Assembly (NCBI GenBank): GCA_903909815.1
Contig: CAIVXG010000085.1
Location: forward strand, 30,324-94,323
Direction: 5' to 3'
Source of the DNA: an uncultured beta proteobacterium
GTDB taxonomy: Bacteria > Pseudomonadota > Gammaproteobacteria > Burkholderiales > Burkholderiaceae_C
DNA length: 64,000 bases
Each line of letters begins with the position of its first letter. Within the stretch, counting starts at the first letter, position 1. The notes beneath the pieces were generated by a model. The model had not been told where the DNA came from. It ran no database searches and saw nothing but the letters and a program-made list of their open reading frames with translations. Both the position numbers and the translations under genes were made by a program. Below, piece by piece: positions 7,119-63,684 of this stretch.

Positions 7119-8552
7119 TCAAAGCACGCGACAGATCTTCAGCATGTTGGTGCCGCCGGGCGCTCCCATGGGCTCGCCGCAGGTGATGGCATAGACGTCT
7201 CCGGTCTGCACCACACCCAGGTGCTTGATGTGGCGTTCGGCCTGCACCAGCGCCGTGTCACGCACGGCGCTGGTGTCCATCAACAGCGCGTGCACATTGC
7301 GGTACAGCGTCATACGCCGCTGCGTCGCCAGATTTGAGGTCAGCGCGTAGATCGGCACGTGGATCAGGTAGCGACTCATCCACAAGGGCGTGGAACCACT
7401 GTCAGTGAGCGCCACGATGGCCTTGGCGCCAAGGTGGTGCGCCGTGAAAAGGGCGCCCAAAGCGATCGCCTGATCGATGCGGCTGAAGGTGCGTCCGCTG
7501 AAATCGGCGTCCAGCGACAACTCTTCAGCGGCCTCAGCGGCCTCGCAGATCTTGGCCATTTCCAGCACCGTCTCCAGCGGGTATTTGCCGGCGGCGGTTT
7601 CGGCCGAAAGCATCACCGCGTCGGTGCCATCGAGCACGGCGTTGGCCACGTCGCTGACTTCGGCGCGGGTGGGTACGGGGTTGGAGATCATCGACTCCAT
7701 CATCTGCGTGGCGGTGATCACGAAGCGGTCGTGCTCGCGCGCCAGCTTGATCATGCGTTTTTGCAGCGCAGGCACCACCGCGTTGCCCACTTCCACAGCC
7801 AGGTCGCCGCGCGCCACCATGATGCCGTCGCTGGCCAGCAGGATTTCTTCGAGCTTGGGGATGGCTTCGGCGCGCTCGATCTTCGCGATCAGGCCGGGCC
7901 TGTGGTTGAACTCCGCGCCTGCCACGTTGCACAGTTGGCGCGCCATTTCCATGTCTGTGGAGTTCTTGGGAAAGCTAACGGCCACATAGTCGGCCTGGAA
8001 CGACATCGCGGTCTTGATGTCGTCCATGTCCTTGGCGGTGAGCGCCGGCGCCGTCAGGCCGCCACCCTGCTTGTTGATGCCCTTGTTGTTGGACAGTACA
8101 CCGCCGACCTTGACCGTGGTGAACACTGCCGCGCCTTTGACCGAGTCGACCGTAATCACGATCAGTCCGTCGTTCAGCAGCAGCACGTCGCCCGCTTTGA
8201 CTTCGCTGGGCAGCGTCTTGTAGTCCAGGCCCACGGCATCGACATCGCCCAGCTCGGTGCGCGCCGCGTCGAGCACGAATTTCTGCCCTGCCTCCAGCAT
8301 GACCTTGCCGTCGGCAAACTTTCCCACGCGTATCTTGGGGCCCTGCAAATCGGCCATGATGGCCACTTCCCGTCCGGCCCGCGTCGCCGCGGCGCGCACC
8401 AGCGTGGCACGGTCGATATGGTCCTGGGCCGTGCCGTGGCTGAAGTTCATGCGCACCACGTCCACGCCGGCGCGAATCAACTGCTCCAGCATCGCGGGGT
8501 CGCTTGAGGCAGGGCCGAGGGTGGCAACGATCTTGGTGGCGCGACGGGTCAT
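7119..8552 (-). CDS. pyk: Pyruvate kinase
   Basis: MTRRATKIVATLGPASSDPAMLEQLIRAGVDVVRMNFSHG...MVARGDLAVEVG. Confidence 0.97.
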   Translation of the reverse strand: MTRRATKIVATLGPASSDPAMLEQLIRAGVDVVRMNFSHGTAQDHIDRATLVRAAATRAGREVAIMADLQGPKIRVGKFADGKVMLEAGQKFVLDAARTELGDVDAVGLDYKTLPSEVKAGDVLLLNDGLIVITVDSVKGAAVFTTVKVGGVLSNNKGINKQGGGLTAPALTAKDMDDIKTAMSFQADYVAVSFPKNSTDMEMARQLCNVAGAEFNHRPGLIAKIERAEAIPKLEEILLASDGIMVARGDLAVEVGNAVVPALQKRMIKLAREHDRFVITATQMMESMISNPVPTRAEVSDVANAVLDGTDAVMLSAETAAGKYPLETVLEMAKICEAAEAAEELSLDADFSGRTFSRIDQAIALGALFTAHHLGAKAIVALTDSGSTPLWMSRYLIHVPIYALTSNLATQRRMTLYRNVHALLMDTSAVRDTALVQAERHIKHLGVVQTGDVYAITCGEPMGAPGGTNMLKICRVL

Positions 8553-29750: not shown

Positions 29751-30833
29751 ATGCAACTCGCCGCCTCGCAACTTGCCGTGCATCTGCAAAAGGGCCTGCG
29801 CTCGCTCTACGCCGTGCATGGCGACGAGCCCTTGCTGGCGCAGGAGGCGGTGGACGCGATTCGGGCCGCGGCGCGCGGACAGGGCTACACCGAGCGCAGT
29901 GCTCACACCGTTTCCGGGGCCCACTTCGATTGGAGTGAAGTGCTGGCTGCAGGTGGCTCCTTGAGCCTGTTTTCAGACAAGCAGATCATTGAAGTTCGCA
30001 TCCCTTCGGGTAAACCGGGCAAGGAAGGAAGTCCCGCCATCCAGCAGTTGGCGCAGGCGGCGCAGGGCAATGAGGACACGGTCACCATTGTCATCCTGCC
30101 GCGCTTGGACAAGGCTACGAAGACCGGTGCTTGGTTCATGGCGCTGGAGAATTTTGGTGTGACGATTGCGGTCGAGCCGGTCGAGCGCGCGGCGCTGCCG
30201 CAGTGGATTGCGCAGCGTCTGCAAACCTTGGGCCTGCGTGTGGCCTCGGGCGTCCAAGGGCAGCGCAGCCTGCAGTTCTTTGCCGATCGGGTCGAAGGCA
30301 ATTTGCTTGCGGCGTTCCAGGAAATCCAGAAGCTCGCCTTGCTCTACCCGGTCGGCGAACTCAGCTTCGAGCAGCTGGAGAGCGCCGTGCTCAACGTTGC
30401 GCGCTACGACGTGTTTAAGCTCTCGGAGGCCGTATTGGCGGGCCAAGCTGGGCGCGTGCAGCGCATGCTGGATGGACTGCAGGCCGAGGGCGAGGCTGAG
30501 GTGCTGGTGCACTACGCACTGTCCGAGGACATCCGCGCCTTGAAGCGGGTGAAGGACGCGCTCAGCGCCGGTCGCCCGCTGCCAGTGGCGCTGCGCGAGC
30601 AGCGTATCTGGGGCGCGCGTGAACGCCTGTTCGAACGGGTGCTACCGCACCTGAGTGCTGCCACCTTGACACAGTTACTGCGCTGCGCACACCTGGTGGA
30701 TGGCATCGTCAAGGGTTTGAAGCAACCCGACTGGCCCAACGACGGCTGGCAGGCCCTGCACCGACTGGCAATGATGCTGTGCAGCGAGTGCGCGCTTCAG
30801 ATCGGTCCGGCTCGGCCGCCCGGCGTGCGCTGA
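29751..30833 (+). CDS. holA: DNA polymerase III subunit delta
   Basis: MQLAASQLAVHLQKGLRSLYAVHGDEPLLAQEAVDAIRAAARGQGYTER...; follows lptE. Confidence 0.95.
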   Translation: MQLAASQLAVHLQKGLRSLYAVHGDEPLLAQEAVDAIRAAARGQGYTERSAHTVSGAHFDWSEVLAAGGSLSLFSDKQIIEVRIPSGKPGKEGSPAIQQLAQAAQGNEDTVTIVILPRLDKATKTGAWFMALENFGVTIAVEPVERAALPQWIAQRLQTLGLRVASGVQGQRSLQFFADRVEGNLLAAFQEIQKLALLYPVGELSFEQLESAVLNVARYDVFKLSEAVLAGQAGRVQRMLDGLQAEGEAEVLVHYALSEDIRALKRVKDALSAGRPLPVALREQRIWGARERLFERVLPHLSAATLTQLLRCAHLVDGIVKGLKQPDWPNDGWQALHRLAMMLCSECALQIGPARPPGVR

Positions 30834-57772: not shown

Positions 57773-58777
57773 ATGCTCGATGACCGTGCCAAGTTGTTGC
57801 TCAAAGCGCTTGTGGAGCGCTACATTGCCGACGGGCAGCCCGTCGGTTCTCGCACGCTTTCCCGCGCTTCGGGTCTTGATTTATCCGCCGCCACCATCCG
57901 CAACGTGATGGCAGACTTGGAGGACCTGGGGCTCATCGCCAGTCCCCATACCTCGGCCGGGCGCATTCCCACAGCACGCGGCTACCGCCTGTTTGTGGAC
58001 ACCATGCTGACCGCGAACCGCGAGCAACTGTCGGCACCCAGCCTGGCGCGCGAGCAACCACAAAAGGTCATTGCCAGCGCAGCGCAGTTGCTGTCCAATC
58101 TTTCGCAGTTTGTCGGCGTGGTGATGGCGCCGCGGCGCACATCGGTGTTTCGTCACATCGAGTTCCTGCGACTGTCGCAGCAGCGCATCCTGGTGATCAT
58201 CGTTTCACCCGAAGGGGACGTGCAAAATCGTGTCATCTTCACCGAAGCCGATTACACCCAGTCGCAGTTGGTGGAGGCAGCCAATTTCCTGAACGCGCAC
58301 TATTCGGGGCTGGCGATTGAACAGGTGCGCGAGCGCCTGAAACATGAGGTTGAGACCCTGCGTGGCGAAATCGCAGCCCTGATGCAGGCCGCGGTTCAGG
58401 TCGGAAGCGACGTCCTCACCGAAGCGCAGGACGATGTGGTGATTTCCGGTGAACGCAACTTGTTGTCTGTCAGCGACTTTGCCGGAGACATGAGCCATCT
58501 GCGTCACGCCTTTGACCTGTTTGAGCAAAAAACCCAGCTGATGCGCTTGTTGGATGTCTCCAGCCGCGCCGAGGGCATACGCATCTACATCGGTGGCGAG
58601 AGCCACACCGTGCCCTTCGAGGAACTGTCTGTCGTAAGTGCGCCCTATGAAGTCGATGGGCAAATAGTGGGCACGCTGGGCGTCATCGGGCCCACGCGCA
58701 TGCCCTACGACCGAATGATCCAAATTGTGGATATCACGTCCAGATTGGTCAGCAATGCCCTGAGCCGACCGAAGTAG
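57773..58777 (+). CDS. hrcA: Heat-inducible transcription repressor HrcA
   Basis: [78 protein letters not shown]. Confidence 0.97.
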
Positions 58778-58828: not shown

Positions 58829-58905
58829 GGGGCGTTAGCTCAGTTGGTTAGAGCAGAGGACTCATAATCCTTTGGTCGAGTGTTCAAGTCACTCACGCCC
58901 TACCA
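58829..58905 (+). tRNA. tRNA-Met (CAT, elongator type)
   Basis: ggggcgttagctcagttggttagagcagaggactcataatcctttggtcgagtgttcaagtcactcacgccctacca; cloverleaf with CAT anticodon and encoded CCA. Confidence 0.96.
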
Positions 58906-59008
58906 TTTATTCATGCGGGTTTCGAGAGGTTTTGGCTTTTTAGGTTCCGCTGTTTTTTTCTGCCAAGGCTCCTTCAAGGCTCCCGGAGACTAAGGTAAAT
59001 TGCGGAAG

Positions 59009-59758
59009 ATGGCCACTTCAAAATCCTCTATTCGTAGTGCCGCAGAGGCGAAGGCCTCTGCGGCCGCAAAATTACCCCCTCCAAAGGCGGAACATGGTTC
59101 GGTTGCCAAGGCGAATAGGCCAAAGCAAGACGGGCCCAGCATGGCTGACGAATCCCTTGAAGGCGCAGTGGCGTTGGAAGACCGCTGGTTTTCCCCCAAG
59201 ACCATTGGCGCGATTTTCGGCCTCGATGAAAAGTGGCTAAGCAGCGTTCGAGAAGGCTTAAAGGGCATCGATGGTCCCCCATTCAAGAAGCTGGGTTCCG
59301 GTCGGTCAGCACCTATCCGCTACAACTACGGCAAATTTAAAGATTGGTTCGACAAGTTCCCGAGCGTAATCAACACGCATGGAAAGCTCGCTGCACGTGC
59401 GGCTTCGGCATTGAGCTTTTTTTCAGAACGCGATGCCCACAAACAGTGGCTGTTTGCTAACGTGAATGGTGAACCGCAAGACATTGTGGTTGCCATCAAC
59501 AGCGGCGCATTCGATGGCGATGACGACCCGTTGACCTATTGGTTGACGTATTGGGAATGGCTTGCCAAAGCTGCCAAGTCTGGGCGTATGGCTTCTGGAA
59601 TCGACAAATTGTTGAGTCAGATAAGCGAGAACGCTATTGCCATCTATGAAGATGACGGCTTAAAAGCTGCGGTACCAAACAACAAGGGCCAAAAGAAAAG
59701 GCAATCTATTGATGACGGGCCGAAAGCTGAGCCGAAAAAGCGGCGAGGCGGTCTGTGA
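59009..59758 (+). CDS. Uncharacterised protein: Ala/Lys/Pro-rich N-terminus plus possible HTH/excisionase-like region; heads the hsd operon
   Basis: MATSKSSIRSAAEAKASAAAKLPPPKAEH...RWFSPKTIGAIFGLDEKWLSSVREGLKGIDGPPFKKLGSGRSAPIRYNYGKFKDWFDKFPSV...; 70 bp upstream of hsdR, same strand. Confidence 0.75.
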   Translation: MATSKSSIRSAAEAKASAAAKLPPPKAEHGSVAKANRPKQDGPSMADESLEGAVALEDRWFSPKTIGAIFGLDEKWLSSVREGLKGIDGPPFKKLGSGRSAPIRYNYGKFKDWFDKFPSVINTHGKLAARAASALSFFSERDAHKQWLFANVNGEPQDIVVAINSGAFDGDDDPLTYWLTYWEWLAKAAKSGRMASGIDKLLSQISENAIAIYEDDGLKAAVPNNKGQKKRQSIDDGPKAEPKKRRGGL

Positions 59759-59828: not shown

Positions 59829-62003
59829 ATGGCAACAACCAACGAAGCATTCGCCCGCGTCAAAATTGACTCGCTTCTGGCCGCGCAAGGCTGGAACACG
59901 CAGGACACTAACGCGGTTCGTTTCGAGGTGCCAATGCCGGATGGCAAACGGGCTGACTATGTTCTGTGCGACCGGCATGGCCGAGCAATGGCAGTGGTTG
60001 AAGCTAAGCGCATGGCGATCAACCCCGGTGAGGCAGCCCAGCAGGCCAAGCACTATGCGCAGCAAATTGGCGTGCCCTACGTTTTTCTGGCGAACGGTCC
60101 CGAGATTCAGTTCTGGCAGTGGGAGAGCGAGGCGTTCCCCCATGCGGTCAAAACGTTTTTCAAGCAGGACGACTTGGAGCGGCGGTTTGCATCGCGTCAA
60201 TTGCGGCGTGACCCAATGGCGGTCGAAATTGACCGCAGCATTGTGGAGCGGGACTATCAAATCGCATGCATCAACACCCTCTGCCAGGAAATTGTGGGCG
60301 GTCGGCGCAAGCTGTTGGTGGAGATGGCCACCGGCACGGGCAAGACCCGCACCGCTGCGGCTTTCATCAAGCGCCTGTTTGAAGCCAATGTGGTCACCCG
60401 CGTCCTGTTTCTGGTGGACCGCATTCCACTTGCCAAGCAGACCGAAGATGCGTTTGCCGAACACCTGCCCACCATTCCGGCCTATGTGCTCAGAACCGGG
60501 CGGCGTTTTCAGGATGAAAAGCGCATCACCATCACCACGCTGCAAAGCATGGTCAACCTCTATGCAGAATATTCCAGCGGCTACTTTGACCTGATCATCA
60601 GCGATGAGTGCCACCGCAGTATCTATGGCCAGTGGAGCGGTGTGCTCAAACACTTTGACGGCGTGCAGGTGGGTCTGACCGCAACGCCGTGCGTCACCAC
60701 GGATGACGATGCCGGTGGCGATGCCGAGGACGGCGCCTTTGTGCGCGACACCCTGCGTTTCTTTGAGGTGGATAGGCCCACCTACTCCTACAAAATGAAA
60801 GACGCGATCCGCGAAGGCTATCTGGTCCCTTACCAAATCTACAAGGCCCAGACGGTCAAGACTGCATCCGAAGGCGGGTTTGAGGTCAAGCGATCAGAGC
60901 TGGACTGGACGGCTATGGACGCCGAAACGGCAGCCGAGCTGGAACAGGTTTTTGCGGGCAAGGAGTCTGTTATGGTGGACCCATCCGCGTTGGAGCGGCG
61001 GTTCACCATTCCCGAACGCAACCGCGCTATCGTTCGCGAGTTCAAGCAGGTGCTCGACAAGGGCTATGTGGATGCCCACGGCATGCTGCGCAAGCCTTTG
61101 ATCGGCAAGACCATTGTGTTCGCCGTGTCCAAACGCCACGCCGAAACGCTGGCAAAGATGTTCGACGCAGAGTTTGCACACTTGAAACCGTCACCGGACG
61201 TGCGTGTCGCCGATTTTGTTGTCAGTGGCTTTGGCCCTGACGACACTGTGGATGGCATGGCCAAGATACGGCGCTTCAAGAAAGAGCAGTTCCCGCAGAT
61301 TCTTGTGTCAGTCAACATGCTGGACACGGGGTTCGATTGCCCGGAGGTGGTCAACCTCGTTTTTGCCCGGTTTACCAAGTCCAGCATCCTCTACCAGCAG
61401 ATGCGGGGGCGGGGCACCCGCAAGGCCAAGAACAAGCCGGTTTTCACGCTATTCGACTTTGTTGGTGTCTGTGATTACCACGGTGATGACGACGACTTTG
61501 CCGAAGGTGGCCCGGTACTGGCAAAACAGGCGAAGAAGAAATACGAGCCACGCCGCCTCCTGTCGCTGGATATCAACGACCACATCGACCCGACAACCCG
61601 TGAATGGGTCACCGTGGACGAAAACGGCAACATGGTGTTCCCGGAAGCGTCAGAGCAGCTTGCCGCTGAATTGGGCGCACGGTTCGAGCTTTGGCTTTTG
61701 GCCCGTCTTGATGCGGGCGAAGTCAATCCCGGCGAGGAAAGCTGGTTGCGCATGATTGGCAGCCAGTTCCGTGCGAACCCTGACCAATATTCGGGCAGCG
61801 ATGCCGAGTTCTTGATTGATCAGTTCGCGTTTCACCCGTTCCAGCAGTTGGGCGGCGTATCGCAAGCCATTCGCGTGTTTGGCGATGAAATGCGACTGCG
61901 CACGTTGATCGACGATCTCAATGAGCACATGTTCCCCGTCGATGATGGCGACAATGCCGATCCCGCTACTGAAAATGCGCCGCAGCCACCTGCGCCGCAT
62001 TGA
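59829..62003 (+). CDS. hsdR: Type I restriction enzyme R subunit (EcoEI-like)
   Basis: Nuclease-like DYVLCDRHGRAMAVVEAKR; Walker A EMATGTGKTRTAAAFI; DECH box ISDECHRSIYGQW; helicase motif VI-like QMRGRGTRK; HsdR/EcoEI C-terminal region. Confidence 0.93.
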   Translation: MATTNEAFARVKIDSLLAAQGWNTQDTNAVRFEVPMPDGKRADYVLCDRHGRAMAVVEAKRMAINPGEAAQQAKHYAQQIGVPYVFLANGPEIQFWQWESEAFPHAVKTFFKQDDLERRFASRQLRRDPMAVEIDRSIVERDYQIACINTLCQEIVGGRRKLLVEMATGTGKTRTAAAFIKRLFEANVVTRVLFLVDRIPLAKQTEDAFAEHLPTIPAYVLRTGRRFQDEKRITITTLQSMVNLYAEYSSGYFDLIISDECHRSIYGQWSGVLKHFDGVQVGLTATPCVTTDDDAGGDAEDGAFVRDTLRFFEVDRPTYSYKMKDAIREGYLVPYQIYKAQTVKTASEGGFEVKRSELDWTAMDAETAAELEQVFAGKESVMVDPSALERRFTIPERNRAIVREFKQVLDKGYVDAHGMLRKPLIGKTIVFAVSKRHAETLAKMFDAEFAHLKPSPDVRVADFVVSGFGPDDTVDGMAKIRRFKKEQFPQILVSVNMLDTGFDCPEVVNLVFARFTKSSILYQQMRGRGTRKAKNKPVFTLFDFVGVCDYHGDDDDFAEGGPVLAKQAKKKYEPRRLLSLDINDHIDPTTREWVTVDENGNMVFPEASEQLAAELGARFELWLLARLDAGEVNPGEESWLRMIGSQFRANPDQYSGSDAEFLIDQFAFHPFQQLGGVSQAIRVFGDEMRLRTLIDDLNEHMFPVDDGDNADPATENAPQPPAPH

Positions 62004-62058: not shown

Positions 62059-63684
62059 ATGCCCCTAACTCCCGACATGCGCCGGTCCATCGACCAAATC
62101 CGCGATTACTTATACGGCGGTGGCTACCCCGATCCCGTAAGCAATGCGGAGCAGTTGTCTTTCCTGTTTTTCTTCTACCTGGTCGAGGGAATTGACGCAG
62201 AGAACAAGGCGCGAGCACGAGTTCTGAAAAAGACATACGACAGTCTGTTCGATGGCGACTGGACTTTGAAAAATCCCCTGAACGCGCCGACTGTGGGTGC
62301 CACCACTGTGCCACGCAATCAGTTCCGCTGGTCAGTGTGGGCCAAGGCATTGTCAGGTGAATCGCTGGTGCGATTCCTGCGGGACGAGGTTTTTGCATTC
62401 TTCTTGGAACTGGGGCAGGGTGCCGGTCACAACTTCATGAATGGCGCGCGATTGACCATCGACGACCCCACAGTGTTAACGCAGGTCATTACGCTGGTCG
62501 ATGGACTGAGGCTTGATGCTTCCGACTCGGACACCAAGGGCGACTTGTTTGAACATGTCCTGCGTCAAATCAAGCAGGCTGGCGAACTGGGTCAGTTCCG
62601 CACCCCACGCCACATCATTCGCACGATTGTGGAGATGATCGACCCAAAGGTTGGGGAAACGGTCTATGACCCTGCCGCAGGCACGGCTGGGTTCTTGGTT
62701 GCAGCCTTTAACCACATGCGGCTGGCGAATTCGTCGCCCTCAGCGATCACCGAGACGGAGTTTGATGGCAAGGTGCAGCGTCGTGGTCTGGGTGACAGGC
62801 TTTCAGCGTCGCAAGTGTCGGCCCTGCAATCCAACACCTTCTTTGGGAACGATGTTGACCCGAAGATGGTGCGGCTGGCGACTATGAATCTGACGTTGCG
62901 CGGTTTGCCCGATGTTCGCATCCTATTGCGCAACGGCTTGACCACGACCCTGGACAACGAGCGCAAGACCGAGCTGGGTTTGCCGCTTGATGGCTATCAC
63001 GTCATTCTTGCCAATCCGCCGTTTTCTGGTCGGGTGGATAAGGACCGAATTGTTGAGGACGTAAAGGTCGGCACCACGACTGCGACCGAGCTGCTGTTTC
63101 TGAAATACATGATGGACAGCCTGCGTCCCGGTGGGCGTTGTGGAGTGATCTTGCCAGAGGGCGTGTTGTTTGGTTCAACTGGTGCCCACAAGGAATTGCG
63201 GCGCATGCTGGTTGAGAACAATCGGGTTGAAGCGGTATTGAGTCTGCCTGGTGGTGTATTCCAGCCATATTCGGGAGTGAAGACTTCCGTGCTGTTCTTC
63301 CGTAAGGGTGGCAGTACCGAGCGCGTGTTGTTCCTACATGCCGATAACGATGGCTACAAGCTGGATGCCAACCATGACCAGTCGATTGAAGCTGATGACT
63401 TTCCGGCGCTGAAAGCAGCATACGCCGCACGCGAGACGTTGGCGAGGCAGTGGGATGCGCGTGATGAGGCAGTCGAGTGGACTGAAAAATGGTGGATGGC
63501 CGATGCCAACACTCTGCGTAACAATGAATTCAATCTGTCCGCCAGCCGTTACAGACCTATAAGCACGAAGCAAGCGGTGCATCGCGATCCGCGTGAATTG
63601 TTGGATGAGCTTGCAGCGATTGAAGCTGAAATATCTGAGGAAGTTGATGCATTGAAATTGGCACTAGCGGAGTTGGGCGCATGA
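62059..63684 (+). CDS. hsdM: Type I restriction-modification N6-adenine methyltransferase subunit M
   Basis: VYDPAAGTAGFLVAAFNHM (SAM motif I) and VILANPPFSGRVD (NPPF catalytic motif). Confidence 0.95.
   Translation: MPLTPDMRRSIDQIRDYLYGGGYPDPVSNAEQLSFLFFFYLVEGIDAENKARARVLKKTYDSLFDGDWTLKNPLNAPTVGATTVPRNQFRWSVWAKALSGESLVRFLRDEVFAFFLELGQGAGHNFMNGARLTIDDPTVLTQVITLVDGLRLDASDSDTKGDLFEHVLRQIKQAGELGQFRTPRHIIRTIVEMIDPKVGETVYDPAAGTAGFLVAAFNHMRLANSSPSAITETEFDGKVQRRGLGDRLSASQVSALQSNTFFGNDVDPKMVRLATMNLTLRGLPDVRILLRNGLTTTLDNERKTELGLPLDGYHVILANPPFSGRVDKDRIVEDVKVGTTTATELLFLKYMMDSLRPGGRCGVILPEGVLFGSTGAHKELRRMLVENNRVEAVLSLPGGVFQPYSGVKTSVLFFRKGGSTERVLFLHADNDGYKLDANHDQSIEADDFPALKAAYAARETLARQWDARDEAVEWTEKWWMADANTLRNNEFNLSASRYRPISTKQAVHRDPRELLDELAAIEAEISEEVDALKLALAELGA

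Follow-up and report, generated by a model that had tools for sequence, protein, structure and literature searches.

What does a 249-residue protein do when its gene lies 70 bp upstream of hsdR, on the same strand, and resembles nothing in the usual family collections? The window, the whole 64,000-nucleotide stretch analysed here, covers positions 30324 to 94323 of contig C85 (94,323 bp), so that the end of the window is also the end of the contig. The open reading frame (59009..59758, + strand) begins with an ATG at 59009 and stops with a TGA at 59756-59758, with a TTG at 59000 as an alternative start, and the hsdR ATG is found at 59829; length, position and spacing are thus as described in an earlier note made from the sequence alone. 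Because the frame remains open in Curvibacter delicatus, at 52% identity and within the same order hrcA-tRNA-gene-hsdR, we regard it as a real gene. Its product is basic (pI 9.4), has seven tryptophans, and starts with a region rich in Ala, Ser, Lys and Pro. No model from Pfam, NCBIfam, PADLOC or PHROG names the protein, which the earlier note had likewise been unable to assign to a family; the sole Pfam match, to the eukaryotic Mad3_BUB1_I (E = 0.0033), falls below the cut-off and was taken as chance. That note placed the gene at the head of a type I RM operon and offered a regulator, a specificity or anti-restriction accessory, or an independent defence gene as possible roles.

Profile and protein searches of genomes from the same family and order, plus a collection of 84,980 species, found six relatives in all. 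They belong to Curvibacter delicatus (G019, locus L020), Pelomonas aquatica (G628, L022), two betaproteobacterial MAGs (G017, L024; and the source of L023), a Propionivibrio (G788, L021), and genome G239 (L009), whose homolog is short. When contigs were scanned with the single protein there was no match, while the alignment gave five. No relatives appeared in tblastn searches of plasmids with three family members and of phages with two, or in three scans of viral contigs. In all seven cases, the window gene included, the gene starts shortly after a tRNA gene or a fragment of one, six times tRNA-Ile2 and once tRNA-Thr. In G239 the shortened homolog (L009:9644-11425) comes after a tRNA-Ile2 3' remnant, with a hipA-like gene next; an intact tRNA-Ile2, beside a different integrase-like gene, is found about 19 kb away. 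A further match, in G037 (L003, E = 1.5e-4), was rejected; it involves mainly the low-complexity N-terminus, has no tRNA nearby, and does not match the family profile.

The key to the locus, missed in the earlier note, is a tRNA(CAU) gene 103 bp upstream of the window gene (58829..58905, + strand). ARAGORN calls it tRNA-Met CAT, but by its likeness to E. coli ileX we take it to be tRNA-Ile2, the target of integration. The chromosomal left flank of the site is hrcA (57773..58777, + strand), which precedes the tRNA also in G001, G003, G017, G019 and G628. In the congeners G001 and G003 the order hrcA-tRNA-argB is uninterrupted and represents the empty site. In the window's genome, argB is instead on contig C248, behind a displaced 45-nt tRNA 3' half with the same T-stem as in G001. 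The same 45-nt sequence, running from the anticodon loop to the CCA end, makes up the 3' half of the window's tRNA (58861..58905, + strand); it occurs three times in the genome, with different T-stems, the third copy being on contig C58 after an integrase. We designate the window copy attL on the strength of the repeat, the displaced copy and the empty site; this half was probably brought by the element. Past the tRNA, GC content drops from about 0.61 to 0.55. Since argB has been displaced to C248 and a further copy of the repeat lies on C58, the end of the window is read as the left edge of a tRNA-integrated array of elements, with the window gene first.

Tandem arrays are known for Islander-class islands, which target tRNA genes and are bounded by a regenerated tRNA on one side and a displaced 3' fragment on the other (PMC4383910). 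The signature of that class is found here, namely a tRNA, a displaced 3' fragment in the same orientation, an integrase, and an empty site in relatives, with the element ends of the window's genome on separate contigs and the integrase seen in the Propionivibrio element. No cognate integrase for the window's element was found in its own genome, nor for that of Curvibacter in G019, and the integrase on C58 carries another type of terminal motif, described below. The window copy may be stranded, or its partner integrase may fall in an assembly gap. Just past the C58 attachment repeat, a second and different phage-type integrase-like ORF occurs (L056:2236-3018), so that two or three elements, at the least, are probably present in the array. 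The Curvibacter region is a composite island as well: a displaced 45-nt tRNA-Ile2 3' half, 33 kb from the Curvibacter tRNA, is accompanied by an integrase-like gene (L047:15966-17563) with upstream repeats of a third type (GCTACG).

One complete element shows the geometry directly. In Propionivibrio, a 29.3-kb element (G788:C3 37967-67329) is bounded by exact 29-nt tRNA-Thr 3' repeats. The homolog sits 82 bp inside one end and reads inward, and a 487-residue integrase with Arm-DNA-bind_3 and Phage_integrase domains sits about 200 bp inside the other end and also reads inward. Within the element are MobA and IncQ-like RepB, RepA and RepC genes; a comparison with plasmid DNA gave no near relative of the IncQ-like genes in L021. 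Its type I RM genes, among them an hsdR of a different family, lie about 10-20 kb from the homolog. The cargo (L040:10661-19833 and L021:11912-16773) includes type I RM, a GmrSD-like gene and a PDDEXK (DUF1016) gene.

A doubled 8-bp motif marks the ends of these elements. In the window it reads AAGGCTCC-TTC-AAGGCTCC (58965..58983, + strand), the only such pair in the genome and one that appeared in none of 60 shuffles of the window. Searching for the pattern AGGCTCCN{3,6}AGGCTCC gave a single match in the window's genome (at 58966), another single match in G019 (at the homolog) and exactly two in G788, one at each element end. There, a doubled motif of the form AAGGCTCC or TAGGCTCC stands upstream of both terminal genes in the same orientation, placed in each case between the terminal gene (homolog or int) and its att site. 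A second branch of the family (G017, L023 and Pelomonas) has ATGGCCCC-type pairs, as does the C58 integrase of the window's genome, and both ends in G017, the one with the homolog and the one with int, carry the same ATGGCCCC variant. These pairs are probably integrase arm-type (P') sites or sites for a recombination directionality factor (RDF), and we treat them as candidates for either. Doubled repeats fit arm sites, and the motif may be bound by the integrase alone. A pair of AGGCTCC sites in G004, located within a recombinase-like ORF, is probably chance.

The architecture predicted for the protein by AlphaFold, from the six-member alignment, is a disordered N-terminus, a winged HTH (wHTH), a second small domain and a disordered end. 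Mean pLDDT is 61, rising to 74-87 across most of the wHTH and falling below 50 at residues 1-41 and 220-249; both of these segments are probably disordered in the model, as the earlier note had supposed for the N-terminus from its Ala/Lys/Pro-rich composition. The stretch WFSPKTIGAIF...KFKDWF is predicted to form the wHTH (residues 60-116, 59186..59356, + strand), with helices at 63-70 and 74-81, strands at 92-94 and 103-106, and a helix at 107-116.

The suggestion of an excisionase/AlpA-type HTH, made from the letters alone, proved apt. The best PDB profile match of the family alignment is RdfS (E = 0.015), aligned along the entire wHTH. Five of the six aligned members match PHROG 66, a group annotated as excisionase and transcriptional regulator (best E = 2e-6), over a common wHTH region limited to about 70 residues, although in the window protein itself the match is below detection; HTH_17 matches one family member (E = 9e-4). 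Foldseek, one of the checks proposed earlier, ranks 2kvv, a "putative excisionase", first and RdfS (8dgl) next, with E between 0.01 and 0.08 and probability 0.96-0.99. A winged HTH of the HTH_17/excisionase class is thus present, as in RdfS/Xis-like factors. The methods agree, and the domain resembles this class even though every single score is modest (E >= 0.01 in the structure comparisons), with the proviso that wHTH excisionases and plain transcriptional regulators are inseparable by sequence. The general HTH class is shared also with AlpA and other P4-type regulators, and the integrases of these elements carry Arm-DNA-bind_3, as P4-type integrases do. AlpA proteins are short single-domain regulators, and no AlpA model matched the window protein. 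Two loci found by profile, L018 and L019, were set aside as ordinary AlpA-like genes, short, with no second domain and no tRNA in the retrieved stretch.

The closest comparison is with RdfS of Mesorhizobium ICEMlSymR7A (PDB 8dgl), an HTH_17-type winged helix in which the elements follow the same order as in the window family, including the helix that precedes the HTH. The residues GP..K.G....RY.....W across the wHTH are common to both, and RdfS is found, like the Propionivibrio relative, on a tyrosine-integrase element. Excision is driven by RdfS, which binds both attP and the promoter of its own gene and increases int expression (PMC11963761); the last 25 residues of RdfS are not required (PMC11963761, PMC9527761). 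Two differences stand out. In the one complete element, that of Propionivibrio, the family gene is at the end opposite int, adjoining the tRNA, unlike RdfS; and whereas RdfS has 89 residues, full-length members of the window family have 183-249 and a conserved extra domain.

RDFs usually have about 60-120 residues, a size not strictly required for function. The window protein is two to three times as long, and the family has 183-249 residues with a second conserved domain (counted over six aligned members except one cut by a contig end); on this account we describe the family as an RDF-like variant and not as a plain member of the class. The additional C-terminal domain (residues 134-221, 59408..59671, + strand) comprises about 90 residues conserved in the family and is predicted to fold as β-β-α-β-α followed by a long helix, with pLDDT about 89 over residues 11-50 of the modelled fragment. 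Searches in PDB, Pfam and Foldseek gave no match to it. This domain is undescribed, and is the most unusual point within the finding; next to the finding, the same can be said of a putative spare tRNA-Ile2 with an intron, described below.

These lines of evidence converge. We observe the location of the gene in an integrated array, the element geometry, the terminal motif and the fold class; because the gene lies at the tRNA end, homolog and int form an inward-facing pair, the terminal motif is common to both ends and the fold is excisionase-like, the window gene is predicted to encode the RDF of a tyrosine-integrase element that inserts into tRNA 3' halves. On the profile, AlphaFold and Foldseek evidence we consider this two-domain wHTH protein probably to be such a factor. 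Excision would join the two ends, leaving the window gene and int divergent across attP. While the element is integrated, the protein would perhaps be made at a low level by read-through from the tRNA. It would act at attL/attP, binding near the arm sites and shaping the DNA so that the integrase favours excision, and might, like RdfS, adjust its own expression and that of int. Excision may be licensed by a partner or signal to which the C-terminal domain binds, and the downstream hsd operon would be cargo.

The adjacency that first drew attention to the gene must be set against this. Family models confirm the two genes that come next: hsdR (59829..62003, + strand) matches ResIII/HSDR_N_2 and hsdM (62059..63684, + strand) matches N6_Mtase, followed by the 5' part of a further ORF cut by the contig end (63681..64000, + strand), probably hsdS by its operon position. 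No terminator-like site was found in the 70 bp between the window gene and hsdR, so a regulator, specificity factor or anti-restriction helper of the type I RM system might be imagined, the more so as the arrangement recurs in Curvibacter. Co-transcription with hsdR is possible, but would be incidental. The survey of homologs that the earlier note proposed found hsdR adjacent in two of the seven loci (the window and Curvibacter) and lacking next to the gene in the other five, among which the L023 contig ends inside the gene and the G017 contig ends about 2.5 kb past it. Consistent linkage to type I RM is thus absent, and what the family follows in seven loci out of seven is the tRNA attachment site, contrary to the idea that it heads or serves an RM operon. 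The nearest other hsdR, 70% identical and in G665, is preceded by an unrelated region, with no homolog in the 1.5 kb before it. In Curvibacter the excisionase-like gene is intact despite a truncated hsdM that is followed by a TIR-like gene (L006:7244-8312), a combination from which the RM system there looks broken, and the L021 gene has a terminator-like hairpin of its own behind it. We consider an RM accessory very improbable.

Two other roles deserve comment. Island edges often carry defence genes, elements of this kind have defence cargo and the function of the C-terminal domain is unassigned, all of which would suit a stand-alone defence or superinfection-exclusion gene at the edge of the element. 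The protein, however, matches no PADLOC model of known anti-phage defence, and the gene stays at att sites when the cargo differs, as mobility genes typically do and cargo does not; nothing was found in support of a specificity, anti-restriction or stand-alone defence role, and we hold the last to be extremely unlikely. A transcriptional regulator of the element, AlpA/Cox-like, controlling int or transfer genes with no direct part in excision, has better grounds in the annotation of PHROG 66, in the doubled motif just upstream of both its own start and the int start, and in a second domain that could bind an effector. We nevertheless judge it unlikely, as the constant placement at att ends and a fold like that of RdfS speak for a part in excision; the two readings overlap, RDFs often doing both.

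Taken as an RDF, the gene is no longer a possible new partner of restriction but belongs to the module that moves an element with defence cargo. The combination of a tRNA, a doubled 8-bp motif, a long wHTH gene and an inward-facing integrase at the far end supplies a signature by which such elements may be found in Burkholderiales and relatives. More tentatively, and with considerable doubt, we propose a new family of directionality factors, long and built of two domains, whose elements are mobilizable, carry defence genes and insert at tRNA-Ile2 and tRNA-Thr; the C-terminal domain would sense a host or helper signal that licenses excision. On the same proposal, one branch of these elements leaves the essential tRNA-Ile2 permanently split and provides a spare copy, immune to the element's own integrase by virtue of a group I intron in the attachment core. 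If the second domain sets the time of excision, mobility would here be gated in a new way.

The spare would be a departure from Islander-class islands, which regenerate the tRNA, whereas some relatives here leave it split and seemingly carry a separate copy. On C58 of the window's genome (L056:1-255) and on C74 of G017 (L041, about 7155-7447, minus strand), a tRNA-Ile2 split by a group I intron of about 205 nt adjoins the integrase of ATGGCCCC-type elements. The C58 intron matches Rfam RF00028 at E = 4e-10 with 43.8 bits, against a gathering score of 50, and was therefore missed at the gathering threshold and found in E-value mode. The element in G017 divides the chromosomal tRNA-Ile2 next to hrcA into a 5' half on C51 and a 3' half on C74, and no other uninterrupted tRNA-Ile2 was found within two mismatches; for these reasons the intron-bearing copy may be an integrase-proof spare. 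If confirmed, such an intron-protected tRNA would explain how an integrase can target an essential tRNA that it does not regenerate. In two congeners, G002 and G004 (L042 and L043; G002:C112 and G004:C120), the native tRNA-Ile2 after hrcA itself holds an intron of about 205 nt, placed after the anticodon and closely aligned to the C58 group I intron; an htpX-like gene comes next, no element is inserted, and the intron possibly gives the site a natural immunity.
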